Program-made: the position numbers and the translations under genes
Notes under the pieces: model-generated
Told to the model about the DNA's origin: nothing
Databases searched by the model: none
The model's input: the letters and a program-made list of their open reading frames with translations, nothing else
Assembly: GCF_003206065.1 (NCBI RefSeq)
Contig: NZ_PZJQ01000005.1
Location: 209,559 to 273,558 of the forward strand
Length of the DNA: 64,000 nt
Origin: Salinicola halimionae
GTDB lineage: Bacteria > Pseudomonadota > Gammaproteobacteria > Pseudomonadales > Halomonadaceae
Direction: 5' to 3'
In this document: positions 54,602-61,035 of the stretch, in pieces
Numbering within the stretch: position 1 is the stretch's first letter
Layout of the letters: the number at the start of each line of letters is the position of its first letter

Positions 54602-55030
54602 ATGCGGCGGATGCTGACCGGAGGCCTATTGCTACTCGCGCTTGTCTCGTTCGGCAGCCGCGGAGATGAGTTGGCGGTCATCATTATTGCCAATCCCGCT
54701 GTGCAGCAATCTTCCCTGCCGCTGGAAACGCTCAGGGCCGTCTTCGCGATGCGGCAAAGAACTCTGCCTGGCGGGCAAGCCGTACACGTCTTCGTCCTGC
54801 CCGATGACAATCCGGTTCATGAAGAATTTTCCAAGAAAATCTTGGGTGTTTATCCGCATCAATTACGATTGGCCTGGGACCGCGCGGTGTTTTCCGGAAC
54901 GGGGCAGGCGCCCAACGAGGTTGAAGACGAGGCGGATATGCTCGAAGCCGTTGCCTCTACCCCGGGTAGTATCGGGTATATCAAACAATCAAGCCTGAAT
55001 GATCAGGTTCGGGTGCTCGACATTGAATAG
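54602..55030 (+). CDS. Small PstS-like periplasmic phosphate-binding-domain protein
   Basis: 142-aa secreted one-domain protein of the PBP-like (phosphate ABC binding) superfamily. N-terminal hydrophobic signal MRRMLTGGLLLLALVSFGSRG; then VIIIANPAVQQSSLPLETLRAVFAMRQRTLPGGQAVHVFVLPDDNPVHEEFSKKILG. The motif of NP...L and the C-terminal TPGSIGYI are those of short PstS-like proteins, which lack the second lobe of true binding proteins. A ligand role is unproven. It overlaps the outer-membrane gene by 32 bases and leads the four-gene module. Confidence 0.75.
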   Translation: MRRMLTGGLLLLALVSFGSRGDELAVIIIANPAVQQSSLPLETLRAVFAMRQRTLPGGQAVHVFVLPDDNPVHEEFSKKILGVYPHQLRLAWDRAVFSGTGQAPNEVEDEADMLEAVASTPGSIGYIKQSSLNDQVRVLDIE

Positions 55031-56216
55031 ATTGAATCCTTTCTTGATCGCTGCTAACGCGGCGGTATCCATGTTGTTGGCCGCCAATGCCCATGCCGTA
55101 GAGATGTCGGATACCTTTCAGGTTCACGGCTTCATGAGTCAGGCACTCATCGTGACTGATCATAACGATTTCTTCGGCCCGAGTAGTGACGGAGGCGGCA
55201 GTCTGGAATATACCGAGCTGGGGTTGAATGCCTCTTTCCGTCCTTTGAACAACGTGCTCGTGGCAGGCCAGCTTCTTGCGAGGCAAGCTGGTGATATCCA
55301 AGAGTTAAATGATATAGAACTTGATTATGGTGTCATTGATTATCAGTTTTATAGCAGCTCTAATATGACGTCGGGGGTGCAGCTGGGACGATTTAAAAAC
55401 CCGCTTGGCCTCTACAATCAAACGCGAGATATCGCTATCACGCGCCCTAGTATACTGCTGCCTCAGTCTATTTACTTTGACCGTACCAGAAAGCCCGCAT
55501 TATCTGCTGATGGTGTGAGTGGTTATCTTGAAAAGCCCTTAAATAATGGCGTATTGAGATTTCAAATTGGTGCGGGTAAACCTCGCATGGATTCGCAGTC
55601 AGAAGTGTCGGCTTTTGGCAGGGATGACCTCGGAAGCTATTCTGGGAAAACATCCTACATTGGACAGCTCCGTTATGAACATGACGGCGGTGGCATGATT
55701 TTAGCGATGACTTACGCTAATGTTAATGCTCGATTAGACTCTAAGCCGTCTGGCCCGGGATCAGGGCGCTTTTCATTCCAACCTTGGATATTTTCTTTCC
55801 AATATAATAGGGAAAGTTGGTCTGTGACGAGCGAATATGCCCTCAGGCATGTCAAATCAAGCGGATTTTCTGAGCCTTACAACTACGAAGCAACAGGAGA
55901 AAGTTGGTATATTCAATTTACTCGTCGCCTGAGTGCTGATTGGCAGTGGCTAGTGAGATATGATTCATTGGTGACGAATAAAGCGGACCGCGCTGGAAGT
56001 GACTACGAAGAGAGAACGGGAAGGCCTGCTTACACGAGGTATGCTAAAGATTGGACGACCGGATTGCAATGGCAACCATACTCTCGATTTTTGATTTCTT
56101 CTGAATTTCACAATATTGAAGGAACTGGTTGGGTGCCGTTCCAAGATGCATCAGAAATTAGTTCTCAGGAGAAATACTGGAATATGTTGCTTTTTCAAGT
56201 TTCTTACTTCTTTTAA
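54999..56216 (+). CDS. Outer-membrane beta-barrel protein, porin-like
   Basis: 405-aa outer membrane protein. Signal segment PFLIAANAAVSMLLAANAHA; then alternating hydrophobic/polar strands, for example LEYTELGLNASFRPLNNVLVAGQLL and WIFSFQYNRESWSVTSEYALRH, ending in QVSYFF with the terminal Phe used for BAM insertion. Weak resemblance to phosphate-selective or DcaP-like porins (DYGVIDYQF, QLGRFKNPLGLYNQTRD). The ATG at 54999 is inside the previous gene; a TTG at 55023 is also possible. AT-richer than its neighbours: the line 55321-55380 has 24 G+C of 60. Confidence 0.8.
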   Translation: MIRFGCSTLNRLNPFLIAANAAVSMLLAANAHAVEMSDTFQVHGFMSQALIVTDHNDFFGPSSDGGGSLEYTELGLNASFRPLNNVLVAGQLLARQAGDIQELNDIELDYGVIDYQFYSSSNMTSGVQLGRFKNPLGLYNQTRDIAITRPSILLPQSIYFDRTRKPALSADGVSGYLEKPLNNGVLRFQIGAGKPRMDSQSEVSAFGRDDLGSYSGKTSYIGQLRYEHDGGGMILAMTYANVNARLDSKPSGPGSGRFSFQPWIFSFQYNRESWSVTSEYALRHVKSSGFSEPYNYEATGESWYIQFTRRLSADWQWLVRYDSLVTNKADRAGSDYEERTGRPAYTRYAKDWTTGLQWQPYSRFLISSEFHNIEGTGWVPFQDASEISSQEKYWNMLLFQVSYFF

Positions 56217-56248
56217 GCAGGTTGTTGATCACTTTAGGGCGTACTGAG

Positions 56249-59050
56249 ATGCACGCAGACAGAAGGAGTTTTCGGTTAGACCTAAAGTGGCGAGCGATGC
56301 TGTTAACCAGCTTTCTCTTGCTGGCCCTGACTAGCCTGATTGTATGGGTAAGCAACCATTCTCTGATGAGTCAGTTTCAGCAATCCCGAGACGAATTTTA
56401 TGAGAGTCAAAGCCAAGAGGTGAAATTCAATGTACAGCGATCTGCAGACGTTATGAGGCAGATGGCCGGCATGGTCGCGTCTTCAGAGGATTTGGGGTAC
56501 GCACTTCTAAATAATAATGAACCTGACGCTGAATTGGCAATAAAGGCTTTGTGGCCGACGTTGCAGCTTGACGTCGGGCTTGATGATATTGTTGTTTATA
56601 ATCGCGAATTGCGCCCTATTGTTACTTTCGGACATAAGTTAGAGTTTCTGGGTGGAGCAGGTAGTGATGACTGGTTGGGTGATGTTTTAGATAATGAGAG
56701 GCCAAGGGATAAGCTTCTCTGCACCGAATCCTGTAAGCAATATGTGGCTGTTCCTGTGCTTGCCGGGGGAGTGGATGCGGGTGTTGTAATGATCTCCCGG
56801 TCCCTAGCAGACATTACACGTTATTTGCAAAAAAGTTCGGGTAGCGAAGTGGCTCTACTCGTTGGTTCGGATAAGCCCTCACTCGAGGGGAGGTATCTTC
56901 CTAGCTGGGGTATTTCTTTAGCCGCGTTGACGCATGAGTCTACAGTATTTCCCTTTATCCAAGAGTTGTCACGGAAATTTTCTTTTTCAGAAACTCAAGG
57001 GAAAGCTCTAAGCTATATCTACGATGGGAAAAAATACGAAATTTCTTCCATTGCTTTGGGAGCGGGAAGTAATGATAGGCGGCCCAGTTATTTTCTATTG
57101 ATTTCCAATGTTACGGATCAATTAAATGGAATTTTGAAAACAACACAGACAATCCTCACGATTTCTTTGGTTGGGTGGGCTGCTGCAGAAATTCTGCTTT
57201 ATCTTATTTTACGTTATCGAATGGGGCGTTTAAGAGAGATTAGCCGCAAGCTTCCTTTGCTAGCTGAACGAAAATATAATGTGATGCGGCATAGTATTAA
57301 GGCTAGAAGATCTTTGTTCGTTGATGAAATTGATGCGTTAGAAACAACTGCTGTAGAGCTCGAGATAAAGCTGGAGGGCTTGGAAGCAGAAGTCGGCAAG
57401 CGAGGTCTGCAGCTTGAAGCTAAGATTAAAGACTTGGCTAGGGAAAGAGACTTTATTAGAGGGCTGATGAATACCGCACAGGTCCTGGTTTTGACTCACC
57501 GTCGAGATGGCTTTATTACTTTGACAAACCGTCTTTGTCAAACCATGACTGGGCTTAGCGATCAAGCCTTGCTGCATTGTAGCTTTCAACAGTTATTCTC
57601 GATGGATTTTTTTAACGTTGATGAGTTTTTTAATGCGGGAGGACAGCAAGAAAGTCATTTTGTATCGGTGGATGGAACTGTCAGAACTATTGTCTGGTAT
57701 CACACTCCACTTAGAATTGACGAGGAACGTCGAGAATTGATTTCCGTCGGGGTTGATATTACCGAACGGAAGTTGGCAGAAAATCGTCTTGCTTGGCTCG
57801 CAAATAGAGATTCTTTGACGGAGCTCTATAACCGTCGGTTTTTCGAAGAGGCTCTTAATCGTGCAGTCGTTGCTGGAGCTTTTGGTGCTGTACTTTACCT
57901 GGATCTAGATCGTTTTAAAGACGTCAATGAACTGAGCGGGCATCAAACCGGTGACCAGCTGCTGCGAGCGGTCGCCTCCACCCTATCCGGACTGAGCCAC
58001 GGATATATCGTGGCCCGACTTGGCGGAGACGAGTTTGCGGTTCTGATGGAGCACACGTCGACTGATGCCGCTGTCGATTTAGCTAGAAAAATAGCTGATC
58101 ACCTGGACCAGCAGAGTATCCATATTCATGGGCGCACACATCGAGCCAGCGCTAGTATCGGTATTGCTGCCTATCCCGATCACGGTGATCGCCCTGACAA
58201 GCTAATGGCTAATGCAGACTATGCCATGTATAGAGCTAAAGAGGATATGGCTAAGCGTTGGCATCTACTACAACCCGATCAGCAGGACCGTGAAGAGTTA
58301 AAGCAGCGGGTGTACTGGGCTGAGAGAATACGCAGCGCGCTACTGTATGATCAGTTCGAGCTAATGCTACAACCCATCTTTAGACTGACAGATTTCAACA
58401 TTCAACATTATGAGGCACTGCTAAGATTGAGGGGCGACGACGGTGAATATCTCTCTCCGGGTGCCTTCATTCCCATTGCTGAGCGAAACGGCCAGATCGC
58501 AGCTATTGACCGATGGGTGGTAGCGAAGGGGATTGAGTTGATTTCGAGGTTTGTTGACAATTCTATAAGCCTTGCTATCAACCTCTCAGGGCAGTCTTTG
58601 CAAGACAAAGAGTTGATGCCTTTAATGGAGTCTGAATTTGAAAAATGGGAGGTAGAACCTCGCCGCCTGATTGTGGAAGTTACTGAGACTGCTGCCGTGA
58701 CTGATTTTACTTCCGCGAGAGGGGTGCTTGAAGACATCCGACGTTTAGGCTGCCAGGTTGCATTGGATGATTTTGGGGTAGGATTCAGCAGTTTTTACTA
58801 TCTTGGCCAACTTCCGTCTGATTATATTAAAGTAGATGGTTCGTTCATCACGACGCTTCCAGATAGCGAGGAAAATCAGCTTATCGTCAAGGCAATTGCC
58901 GACATTGCTAAGGGACTAGGTAAGAAAACGGTGGCAGAATTTGTCGACAAGCCTTCCATACTACCATATCTAAGAAAATACAATATTGACTATGTCCAAG
59001 GATTCTATTTGGGAAGGCCTCAGCCGGCCACAGAGGTTGGGATTAAGTGA
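56249..59050 (+). CDS. Membrane GGDEF-EAL protein with periplasmic sensor and PAS
   Basis: 933-aa cyclic-di-GMP enzyme. First membrane segment about 18-39 (MLLTSFLLLALTSLIVWV), a periplasmic domain of about 255 residues with a CHASE4/dCache look, second segment about 297-320 (GWAAAEILLYLILRY), coiled region, PAS about 410-510, GGDEF domain with intact GGDEF (about 592-596) and Asp at LDLDRFKD, and EAL domain with HYEALLRL (about 720), NLSGQSL, VEVTET, ALDDFGVGFSSF and QGFYLGRP. No RxxD inhibitory site precedes GGDEF (HGYI there). Both activities look possible; an intact EAL supports hydrolysis. Start at ATG 56249; the earlier TTG is less likely. AT-rich: 57181-57240 has 22 G+C of 60. Confidence 0.9.
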   Translation: MHADRRSFRLDLKWRAMLLTSFLLLALTSLIVWVSNHSLMSQFQQSRDEFYESQSQEVKFNVQRSADVMRQMAGMVASSEDLGYALLNNNEPDAELAIKALWPTLQLDVGLDDIVVYNRELRPIVTFGHKLEFLGGAGSDDWLGDVLDNERPRDKLLCTESCKQYVAVPVLAGGVDAGVVMISRSLADITRYLQKSSGSEVALLVGSDKPSLEGRYLPSWGISLAALTHESTVFPFIQELSRKFSFSETQGKALSYIYDGKKYEISSIALGAGSNDRRPSYFLLISNVTDQLNGILKTTQTILTISLVGWAAAEILLYLILRYRMGRLREISRKLPLLAERKYNVMRHSIKARRSLFVDEIDALETTAVELEIKLEGLEAEVGKRGLQLEAKIKDLARERDFIRGLMNTAQVLVLTHRRDGFITLTNRLCQTMTGLSDQALLHCSFQQLFSMDFFNVDEFFNAGGQQESHFVSVDGTVRTIVWYHTPLRIDEERRELISVGVDITERKLAENRLAWLANRDSLTELYNRRFFEEALNRAVVAGAFGAVLYLDLDRFKDVNELSGHQTGDQLLRAVASTLSGLSHGYIVARLGGDEFAVLMEHTSTDAAVDLARKIADHLDQQSIHIHGRTHRASASIGIAAYPDHGDRPDKLMANADYAMYRAKEDMAKRWHLLQPDQQDREELKQRVYWAERIRSALLYDQFELMLQPIFRLTDFNIQHYEALLRLRGDDGEYLSPGAFIPIAERNGQIAAIDRWVVAKGIELISRFVDNSISLAINLSGQSLQDKELMPLMESEFEKWEVEPRRLIVEVTETAAVTDFTSARGVLEDIRRLGCQVALDDFGVGFSSFYYLGQLPSDYIKVDGSFITTLPDSEENQLIVKAIADIAKGLGKKTVAEFVDKPSILPYLRKYNIDYVQGFYLGRPQPATEVGIK

Positions 59051-59057
59051 AAACCTT

Positions 59058-59846
59058 ATGTCGTCAGAAGGTCGTCAGGATGGCGAGACGTCGAACAATC
59101 GATTTTTGAGAAAATTCAATTTCCTTTTAGCAACGAATGAGCGAGATAGAGCACGGGTTTTTTCTCTTAGACATCGTGTTTTCTGCGAGGAGTTAGGGTT
59201 TTTCTCGCTTGATTTGGCGGATCGCCTAGAACAGGATACGTTCGATGCTAATTCTCTTCACTGTCTGGTAGAACACCGTGATACAGGACTAGCGATAGGT
59301 TGCCTACGCGTAGTCATGGCGCTCGACTCTATGGGCAGGGCTTCGATATTACCCGTAGAGAAACATTGCCGAGATCTTGGTGTGGCGATCGATCTTGAAG
59401 TAGGGGAGATTAATAGGAAAAGCCTATGCGAAATTTCACGCGTGGCTATACCTCGATTTTTTCGATCTGGCGGTAAAGATGAGTCGCTCGCGACCGAGCT
59501 AGAGAAATGGGTCTTTAGCCAGCACGAGCGTCAAGATTTTCTCATGACAGGTGTTGCTCTCAATCTTTGCGCAACTGCATTAAGCGGTATCTCGGAACGT
59601 TATCATGTGTTGGCAATGATTGAGCCGCGTTTCCAACGGTTGTTGGCTCGGGTCGGTTTGCGCTTCGAACAAGTCAGCCCGACGGTAGAACTTCTAGGAC
59701 TACGAGCTGCTTTCTATATCAATCAGCAGCGTGCTGAGGGAGAACTCCGCCAAACGGTTCGGCCGCTCTACGAGGCACTACGGGATGATTTGAAAGCGCA
59801 ATATATTCTCGAGGGAGGAGGTGCTCAGATAGGCGCTTTTCGTTGA
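59058..59846 (+). CDS. Exosortase-associated/FeeM-type acyltransferase
   Basis: 262-aa acyltransferase resembling the PEP-CTERM/exosortase-associated acyltransferase family and N-acyl amino acid synthase FeeM, themselves related to autoinducer synthases (LuxI fold). The key core is ARVFSLRHRVFCEELGFF (about 33-50), as in RYxVxCxExGF, then DTFDANSLHCLVEHRDTGLAIGCLRVVM and EISRVAIPRFFRSGG. These enzymes use acyl-ACP or acyl-CoA to acylate an amine. The ATG at 59058 is 8 bp after the preceding stop; another at 58992 would overlap it. Ribosome site is weak for both. No exosortase gene is near. A hairpin follows. Confidence 0.75.
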   Translation: MSSEGRQDGETSNNRFLRKFNFLLATNERDRARVFSLRHRVFCEELGFFSLDLADRLEQDTFDANSLHCLVEHRDTGLAIGCLRVVMALDSMGRASILPVEKHCRDLGVAIDLEVGEINRKSLCEISRVAIPRFFRSGGKDESLATELEKWVFSQHERQDFLMTGVALNLCATALSGISERYHVLAMIEPRFQRLLARVGLRFEQVSPTVELLGLRAAFYINQQRAEGELRQTVRPLYEALRDDLKAQYILEGGGAQIGAFR

Positions 59847-59854
59847 TACATCGT

Positions 59855-59904
59855 CGATCATCGATCATCGATCATCGGCGGCGGCGATATCGATCGCCGC
59901 CGCC
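59855..59904. repeat. Heptamer repeat and 12-bp hairpin between convergent genes
   Basis: CGATCAT three times (59855-59861, 59862-59868, 59869-59875), then a perfect hairpin GGCGGCGGCGAT (59877-59888) and ATCGCCGCCGCC (59893-59904), 4-base loop. It has no T-run but could end transcripts from either side. It is at the right edge of the AT-rich module. Confidence 0.8.
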
Positions 59905-59910
59905 ACTCCG

Positions 59911-61035
59911 CTAGCCGATCGCTCTGGCAATCTTTTCGCCTAGACTTTGTGTCGTGCCTTTCCCCTTCAGGTCCGGTGTAAGCGCGGACTTGTCGTCGCC
60001 TGCCAGGACTTCCTCGATCGCGCTGACCATCGCGTCGCCTGCTTCCTTGTAACCGAGATGTTCGAGCATCATCGCGCCGCACCAGATCTGGCCGATGGGA
60101 TTGGCGATGCCCTTGCCGGCGATATCCGGGGCGCTACCGTGAACCGGTTCGAACAGACTCGGAAACTTGCCTTCCGGATTGATGTTGGCCGAGGGAGCAA
60201 CGCCGATGGTGCCGGTACAGGCGGGACCGAGGTCGGAGAGAATATCGCCGAACAGATTGCTGGCGACGACGACGTCGAACCAGTCCGGATGCAACACGAA
60301 GTTGGCGGTCAGAATATCGATGTGGAACTGGTCGACGCTGACGTCCGTATAGTTTTTGGCCATCGCTTTTACGCGCTCATCCCAGTACGGCATGGTGATC
60401 GAGATGCCGTTGGACTTGGTCGCAGAGGTCAGCTTCCTGCGCGGACGACTCTGGGCCAGTTCGAAGGCATATTTCAGTACTCGGTCCACCCCGGTGCGCG
60501 TCATGACGGTTTCCTGCATCACCGTCTCGCGTTCGGTGCCTTCGAAAATCTTGCCGCCGATGCTCGAGTATTCCCCTTCGGTATTTTCGCGAACCACGTA
60601 GAAGTCGATATCGCCCGGCTCGCGATCGGCCAGCGGACTCTTGATACCGGGCATTAGGCGGCAGGGTCGCAGGTTGATGTATTGGTCGAAGTGGCGACGG
60701 AACTGCAGCAGCGAGCCCCACAGCGAAATATGATCCGGCACCTTGTCCGGCCAGCCTACCGCGCCGTAGAAGATGGCGTCGAAGCCGGAGAGCGTCTCGA
60801 ACCAGTCGTCCGGCAGCATCTTGCCGTGTTCCAGATAATAGTCGCAGCTGCCGAATTCGAAGTGCTCGAACTCGAGATCGAGTTTGAATCGCTTGGCAGC
60901 CGCTTCCAGCGCGCGCAGACCTTCCGGTACCACTTCGGTACCGATGCCGTCGCCGGCGATGACCGCAATCTTGTGGGCCCCGTTCTGAGTCTTCTTTTCA
61001 GTCTGGGTCTTCGCTTGAGTTTGGTTCTGAGCCAT
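59911..61035 (-). CDS. Tartrate dehydrogenase / D-malate dehydrogenase family
   Basis: 374-aa NAD-dependent oxidative decarboxylase of the isocitrate/isopropylmalate dehydrogenase superfamily, TtuC/DmlA branch. Marks: IAVIAGDGIGTEVVPEG (residues 23-39), DYYLEHGKMLPDDWF, YGAVGWPDKVPDHISLWG, FYVVRENTEGEYSSIGG (substrate-binding region), ATKSNGI and VVASNLFGDILSDLGP with the metal Asp. An N-terminal tail of 20 Gln/Lys/Thr-rich residues (AQNQTQAKTQTEKKTQ) precedes the fold and is a coding short repeat. Acts on tartrate or D-malate. It lies 7 bp before the hydrolase gene in the same operon. Confidence 0.88.
   Translation of the reverse strand: MAQNQTQAKTQTEKKTQNGAHKIAVIAGDGIGTEVVPEGLRALEAAAKRFKLDLEFEHFEFGSCDYYLEHGKMLPDDWFETLSGFDAIFYGAVGWPDKVPDHISLWGSLLQFRRHFDQYINLRPCRLMPGIKSPLADREPGDIDFYVVRENTEGEYSSIGGKIFEGTERETVMQETVMTRTGVDRVLKYAFELAQSRPRRKLTSATKSNGISITMPYWDERVKAMAKNYTDVSVDQFHIDILTANFVLHPDWFDVVVASNLFGDILSDLGPACTGTIGVAPSANINPEGKFPSLFEPVHGSAPDIAGKGIANPIGQIWCGAMMLEHLGYKEAGDAMVSAIEEVLAGDDKSALTPDLKGKGTTQSLGEKIARAIG

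Follow-up and report, generated by a model that had tools for sequence, protein, structure and literature searches.

What brings an acyltransferase with the predicted fold of autoinducer synthases into one operon with an outer-membrane barrel and a GGDEF-EAL protein? We addressed this question in a 64,000 nucleotide (nt) stretch of the Salinicola halimionae genome (contig NZ_PZJQ01000005.1, positions 209,559 to 273,558; hereafter the window), where four open reading frames, here called genes A to D, follow one another on the plus strand. Gene A (54602-55030) encodes a probably exported protein of 142 amino acids (aa) that resembles part of PstS, and gene B (54999-56216) encodes a predicted 16-strand outer-membrane barrel of 405 aa. 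Gene C (56222-59050 from a TTG codon, or from ATG 56249) encodes a protein with dCache_3, PAS, GGDEF and EAL domains, and gene D (58992-59846, with ATG 59058 as the likelier start) encodes an acyltransferase assigned to TIGR03694 by score. A segment of the barrel and the acyltransferase are matched polymorphic alleles at a fixed locus in the family Halomonadaceae, and we consider the chances about even that the four genes form a polymorphic self-recognition operon, in which the signal made by D and its receptor B are matched and A and C relay to cyclic di-GMP (c-di-GMP).

Matched alleles of the barrel and the acyltransferase

The four genes were compared in Halomonas, Billgrantia and Vreelandella, which make up two large genera here (g10 and g20; hereafter Halomonas/Vreelandella-type genomes). 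These were sampled, like all others in this work, at one genome per species, and all four genes were alignable in 60 of the 64 genomes. The identity of D between genomes tracked that of B residues 161-320 (55479-55958 in the window) and not that of residues 1-160, and it followed C little, though C sits between B and D. Among the 82 pairs in which C is at least 85% identical, the Spearman correlation with D was 0.89 for B 161-320 and 0.77 for B 321-405, and only 0.36, 0.29 and 0.24 for B 40-155, C and A, respectively. Over the 60 genomes, the partial correlation with D given A and C was 0.65 for B 161-320, a value reached by none of 999 permutations; it was 0.26 for B 321-405 (0/999) and 0.07 for B 40-155 (60/999), and that of C given A was 0.17 (1/999). 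Segments of 40 residues in C that are as variable as the barrel segment gave just 0.02-0.11 with D. The idea that C is the variable receptor of these genomes found no support, as C varies little with D.

The genomes G119 and G133 exemplify this pattern. Protein identity between them reaches 96% for both A and C and 97% for B 40-155, as opposed to 37% for D and 51% for B 161-320. At the DNA level, both islands are ~50% identical and the rest of the locus is mostly at ~90-95%, the D island starting within the last few tens of C codons. A single recombination tract with B, C and D everywhere is ruled out as the sole cause by these two separate islands.

In pairs with C at least 80% identical that were picked greedily so as to be taxon-disjoint (the other pairwise statistics use non-independent pairs), a D identity below 55% went with B 161-320 at 75% or less in 14 of 14 cases, and a D identity of at least 65% went with B 161-320 above 75% in 19 of 19. 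At 55% average identity, D fell into 18 classes, 13 of which have at least two members; the five singletons were left uncounted. The 13 classes required 12 changes on the tree of B 161-320, which is the minimum, compared with 18 on the tree of B 321-405, 21 on those of B 40-155 and of GGDEF-EAL, 23 on that of the sensor and 24 on that of A. Even across genera, pairs sharing a D class (n = 25) had B 161-320 identities of 75.6% on average and 66% at the lowest, against a mean of 52.9% and a maximum of 71% for pairs of different classes (n = 754); the corresponding gap in A, C and the remainder of B was 4-10 points. These results indicate that the barrel segment and D are matched polymorphic alleles at a fixed locus.

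The AlphaFold model of B is a 16-strand barrel with a mean predicted local distance difference test score (pLDDT) of 80.7 and a low-confidence segment within residues 134-168. Short barrel turns are usually periplasmic, and this rule was used to assign the sidedness of the loops. The co-variation of B with D peaks at residues 201-216 and 246-251, that is, at the predicted extracellular loops L4 (residues 196-211; 55584-55631) and, with the second peak, L5 (residues 249-255; 55743-55763). A lesser peak of 0.31-0.34 at residues 286-291 corresponds to L6 (residues 289-295; 55863-55883), and values were at most 0.26 in L1, L2, L7, L8 and the conserved 134-161 segment. According to this model, the co-variation is greatest around the predicted extracellular loops, which are among the most variable parts of B. 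On the side of D, the co-variation is dispersed, with maxima around residues 111, 176-186 and 221.

Allele classes, borders and distribution of the operon

All 18 Salinicola genomes contain B and D, and in all 18 the same dehydrogenase gene was found in the fetched stretch. Their D proteins form class I (10 species, including that of the window) and class II (8 species), between which identity is 30-37% in D, 46-50% in C and 46-57% in B. Between the window and G066, for example, identity is 93% for A and 93-97% for four proteins of the flanks, with D at 34%. On the gyrB tree the class requires at least five changes, and a single clade was rejected by the approximately unbiased (AU) test (p = 4.7e-7); A (p = 2.0e-4) and the downstream flank gene (p = 1.9e-4) likewise rejected the class as one clade. 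In each of the B, C and D trees, the classes are one fully supported split. Between G095 and G112, whose gyrB genes are 96.5% identical, DNA identity is ~90% through A, ~50% from the middle of B to the end of D, and 83% and then ~95% in the downstream gene. Two old classes, whose block starts within B and ends with D (approximately 55240-59846 in the window), thus cut across the species tree, and neither A nor the downstream flank conforms to them. The simplest reading of these trees and identities is that the allele block has been exchanged between species at a fixed site.

The initial annotation, made from the window alone, had described four tightly spaced genes of the same direction in an AT-rich module bounded by a convergent gene and a hairpin, and most of this description was borne out. 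A and B overlap by 32 nt, and C and D either overlap by 59 nt (D from ATG 58992) or are separated by 7 nt (D from the likelier ATG 59058), so that every junction is shorter than 35 nt except for the overlap given by the earlier D start. Downstream of D, the 65 nt at 59847-59911 fold at -33.7 kcal/mol and contain, by folding, a hairpin with a 12-bp stem (59877-59904), which precedes the convergent dehydrogenase gene on the minus strand (59911-61035). The G+C content is 46.7% in 55040-59846 versus 61.8% in the remaining window, and leftward stretches of equal length (n = 49,793) ranged from 59.3% to 66.0% without exception. AT-richness applies to B, C and D (46%, 46% and 49% G+C) but gene A is just mildly AT-rich (56%). 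A reading of this AT-richness as the mark of a simple acquired module was not supported: the presence of the operon and the same downstream gene in all 18 members of the genus rules out the recent acquisition of a foreign module, and the G+C content differs between alleles. In the 60 genomes of g10 and g20, the G+C content of D is below that of C in 58 (means, 53.1% vs 60.4%).

D is present in 116 of 201 family genomes, and B in the same 116 as well as in G091 as an 86-residue fragment. Apart from the window itself, 115 loci were compared, 111 of which carry A-B-C-D on a single strand in this order; the other four are interrupted by contig ends. Of the 111 complete loci, 90 share an overlap of A and B of exactly 32 nt, and in every one of the 111 D adjoins the GGDEF-EAL gene. 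Within the family, the four genes thus occur together with hardly any exception.

Several copies among the 111 are not intact. D is in two pieces in G088 (L141), G023 (L146) has fragments of B and D, and C frames are shorter in G015 (L136) and G010 (L061); these four copies may be decaying. In the four loci at contig ends, G196 (L145), G171 (L091), G059 (L121) and G120 (L068), B is broken between residues ~128 and 181. The pieces of B lie on different contigs in the first three, and the second piece was not found in G120. Next to the break in G196 lies a sequence that we take to resemble a fragment of an IS1380-type transposase.

Outside the family, B had a match in 40 of 369 genomes of the class (the window's own genome and two family members excluded), many of the matches being weak or partial. 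We examined 26 of these 40 loci: A adjoins B in all 26, a C-type sensor gene lies beside B in 21 (on the same strand in 20), and a relative of D is close by in eight, in varied order and orientation. In L199 (SLSJ01000029.1, a metagenome bin titled Ectothiorhodospiraceae), the barrel is 53% identical to that of the window and A and C are present; D was not found in the available stretch. Conversely, 14 stretches that carry D relatives, taken from the stronger D matches in the order's other families, had no match to A, B or the C sensor in the fetched stretch, which was only 3.4 kb in L352. In L353, a GGDEF-type frame lies beside the D relative without a match to A, B or the C sensor. Three stretches from other families of the order, L345 (G603), L349 (G609) and L355 (G567), each hold a back-to-back pair of oppositely oriented D relatives and contain neither A nor B.

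As TIGR03694 is an exosortase-linked model (exosort_acyl), the distribution of exosortase (PF09721) was also compared. It was detected in all 14 of these D-only genomes and in five of the eight non-family genomes with D near A-B. The window genome has none, and no family genome out of 201 scored above the cut-off, with a sub-threshold score of 20.7 bits in G024 (PEP-CTERM motifs were not searched). An exosortase context for D is ruled out here by this absence, as the initial annotation had expected from the window; no search was aimed at exopolysaccharide genes outside the window. Its view of a self-contained signalling unit is a good reading in light of the co-occurrence of the genes and the lack of exosortase in the family. 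From these distributions, D would have joined, perhaps more than once, an older A-B-C core.

Features of the four proteins

The D protein scored 168.3 bits with TIGR03694, above the cut-off of 111.95, and 26.0 bits with PF00765 of the LuxI family (cut-off 24). Its AlphaFold model (mean pLDDT 89.9) has a fold like those of TofI, LasI, BjaI and FeeM. Seven residues, Arg60, Glu80, Asp82, Arg106, Glu147, Ser149 and Arg150 (numbered from ATG 58992), which we take to be the equivalents of the LuxI catalytic set, are invariant in 113 of 113 sequences. Because these catalytic-type positions are kept throughout, the D alleles appear to be active enzymes that differ at the surface.

PF00765 passed in four of the 18 Salinicola genomes, each time at D; it was silent in 14 control genomes, and there was no positive control. 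By this model, likewise without a positive control, no LuxI other than D was detected in the 18 genomes. A LuxR ligand-binding domain is present in four of them and absent from the window genome. The lack of a LuxI other than D disagrees with a 2013 survey (PMC4187203), which in the part available to us reports N-acyl homoserine lactone (AHL) activity in members from across the family, two Salinicola species among them. In the same part, the signal of S. salarius in thin-layer chromatography is no higher than that of uninoculated medium, leaving the plate response only, and the legend of a LuxI tree names Salinicola, a genus that may thus have yielded an amplified LuxI fragment (PMC4187203). 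The link between D and the AHL activity of Salinicola was weakened on this checking.

B matched no Pfam or NCBIfam family at an E-value of 0.1, including OprP/OprO and other specific porins, and no porin was returned when a B profile was run against solved structures. Foldseek, in contrast, placed porins at the top of the solved structures (VhChiP, a chitoporin; Omp32; DcaP; OprP; OmpF). Identity to OprP/OprO is 11-12%, and the likeness is by fold only.

The label of PstS-like protein, which A had received in the initial annotation, stood in part. A profile of A (52 rows, with 32 invariant residues) matched part of PstS in the Protein Data Bank at an E-value of 8e-4, but the score of 13.4 bits with the Pfam family PBP_like_2 is below the cut-off of 27, and A, at 142 aa, is not a full-length PstS phosphate-binding protein scoring over the curated cut-off. 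The PstS label is thus a weak one based on partial likeness.

The C protein is 942 aa long from the TTG codon and 933 aa from ATG 56249. Pfam identified dCache_3, GGDEF and EAL domains, with PAS below the cut-off. The GGDEF motif is kept in 113 of 114 sequences, the remaining one having GGGEF; the DDFG and Lys motifs are each present in 114/114 and the Glu motif is shown in 113/114. The EAL motif itself is listed for 79 of the 114, and its Glu is present in all 79. Judged by these residues, C keeps both sets of c-di-GMP catalytic motifs, GGDEF and EAL.

A candidate self-recognition system and its alternatives

How could these proteins work together? LuxI and FeeM enzymes make acylated products. 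D may couple an acyl chain to an amino-bearing acceptor, with the structure of the signal varying by D allele, and B would recognize the signal of the matching D allele via L4-L6 and the strands carrying them. The conserved part of the barrel, together with A, would relay this to C at its dCache domain, and C would shift c-di-GMP by way of GGDEF and EAL. Homologous recombination at the fixed chromosomal site would swap barrel-segment and D alleles between species, and mostly matched pairs would persist. From the matched alleles, the conserved operon and the intact catalytic motifs, we infer that a signal exists and binds B, that A takes part in the relay, that c-di-GMP responds and that selection lies behind the match. 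An extracellular partner matched to D is most simply a receptor for the D product. The initial annotation had the ligand sensed through the barrel and the PstS-like protein; a reading of the ligand by the PstS-like protein was not supported, since A and C vary little with D in the Halomonas/Vreelandella-type genomes and the mid-barrel does vary with it. With so little matching to D in the two large genera, A and C probably respond to the barrel's state rather than to the ligand itself. The more specific proposal of a Gram-negative pherotype system, in which the barrel is the surface receptor for the acyl autoinducer of its own operon, with many matched specificities shuffled among the Halomonadaceae and c-di-GMP as the read-out, is plausible, at somewhat less than an even chance.

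Several observations weigh against a dedicated pairing of B and D in such a system. One clear exception was found among the 82 close pairs, G144/G200, with B 161-320 at 91% and D at 41%; this pair is absent from the taxon-disjoint set, and G144 is a singleton class outside the count of 13. In the family-wide set (108 of the 116 genomes with all four genes, after rows were dropped for short B in four loci, C in two and D in three), C correlates with D at 0.47-0.48 given A, and with A and C controlled for, the value for B 161-320 drops to 0.41. This family-wide correlation of C is expected if whole blocks differ in Salinicola and in Kushneria-type genomes, where C is 49-50% identical with A at 85-90%. 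In Salinicola, C differs along with B and D, and the match of B and D is inseparable from it. The separation of C from the match thus rests on two genera, and the limits 161-320 and the thresholds were set on the same data as those tested. Moreover, the barrel strands flanking the loops co-vary with D at 0.2-0.5, and A has no clear signalling domain.

The barrel might instead be a channel through which the D product specifically leaves or enters the cell, in which case A and the dCache domain of C, and not the barrel, would read the ligand in the periplasm. The predicted porin fold, with VhChiP, Omp32, DcaP and OprP as top matches, would fit such a channel, and A resembles part of a binding protein. 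A precedent exists in Vibrio cholerae, whose periplasmic binding protein NspS works with MbaA, according to the accessible part of PMC5646818. If A and C were the readers, however, they should vary with D, which they do little in the 60 Halomonas/Vreelandella-type genomes, and the co-variation is greatest at the predicted extracellular loops. We regard this channel as unlikely, though worth keeping in view.

Frequency-dependent selection on a weapon for kin discrimination would leave the same matched polymorphism: the D product would be an antagonistic or membrane-active compound, the matched barrel would protect its producer, and C would control deployment. Polymorphic outer-membrane loci of myxobacteria serve both self-recognition and toxin delivery, as far as the portions available of the sources cited below for TraA describe. 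In its predicted fold and its active-site residues, however, D is like the synthases of autoinducers and of N-acyl amino acids, and it lies beside the GGDEF-EAL gene in 111 of 111 complete loci. No export or immunity gene was noticed, and no search was aimed at such genes. Such a weapon seems quite improbable to us.

Still less probable is that D makes a membrane aminolipid needed for assembly or gating of the barrel, so that the match reflects a fit of lipid and protein with no intercellular signal. D has a weak score with the ornithine N-acyltransferase model NF052554, and strands co-vary as well as loops; this score, 23.8 bits, is far under the cut-off of 350, and the co-variation is greatest at the loops. 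Pressure from phages or predators on the barrel loops, with D riding on the same recombination tracts, would fit the variability of the predicted extracellular loops and the joint divergence of the entire block in Salinicola, but it is the least probable of these explanations: C stays 80-96% identical (protein) between the diverged islands of Halomonas/Vreelandella-type pairs, so that D does not just ride along on a single tract, and the counted D classes match the barrel classes without exception.

The self-recognition reading has counterparts among known systems. ComQXPA of Bacillus subtilis, and likewise the competence-stimulating peptide (CSP) types of pneumococci, are polymorphic signalling loci that sort strains into communication groups, according to the available text of PMC4408185 and PMC5629823; the operon described here similarly has a matched polymorphism at a fixed locus, with putative roles of signal and receptor. 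ComQXPA uses peptide signals and the histidine kinase ComP (PMC4008528, in the part available), whereas here an acyltransferase, an outer-membrane barrel and a GGDEF-EAL protein are found. No histidine kinase domain was detected in A-D by Pfam or NCBIfam, as a ComQXPA- or agr-like set would include; short peptide genes were not searched. TraA of myxobacteria is a polymorphic surface protein that distinguishes self from non-self, as the available parts of PMC6372800, PMC3820747 and PMC13184517 describe. TraA recognizes TraA, whereas here two unlike proteins, an enzyme and a barrel, hold the matched variation. Because it has no kinase and its matched proteins are unlike, the operon is pherotype-like or self-recognition-like yet a member of neither ComQXPA nor TraA. 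D shares its TIGR03694 score and predicted fold with N-acyl amino acid synthases of the FeeM type, but the exosortase setting is absent in the family. MbaA is a GGDEF-EAL protein, and the NspS/MbaA operon is not known to contain a barrel or a signal synthase. Its ligand is a polyamine, whereas a self-made acyl product is proposed here. In the titles and abstract openings of the open-access literature, we found no description of this operon or of an allele match between a barrel and an acyltransferase.

To our knowledge, acyl autoinducers of Gram-negative bacteria are usually held to be read intracellularly by LuxR or by inner-membrane kinases. If the self-recognition reading is true, an outer-membrane barrel whose alleles pair with those of a signal-type enzyme would represent a new site and mode of reception, and self-recognition would be tied to c-di-GMP in the Halomonadaceae. 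Natural pairs such as G119 and G133, alike save for two islands, are ready-made allele swaps.

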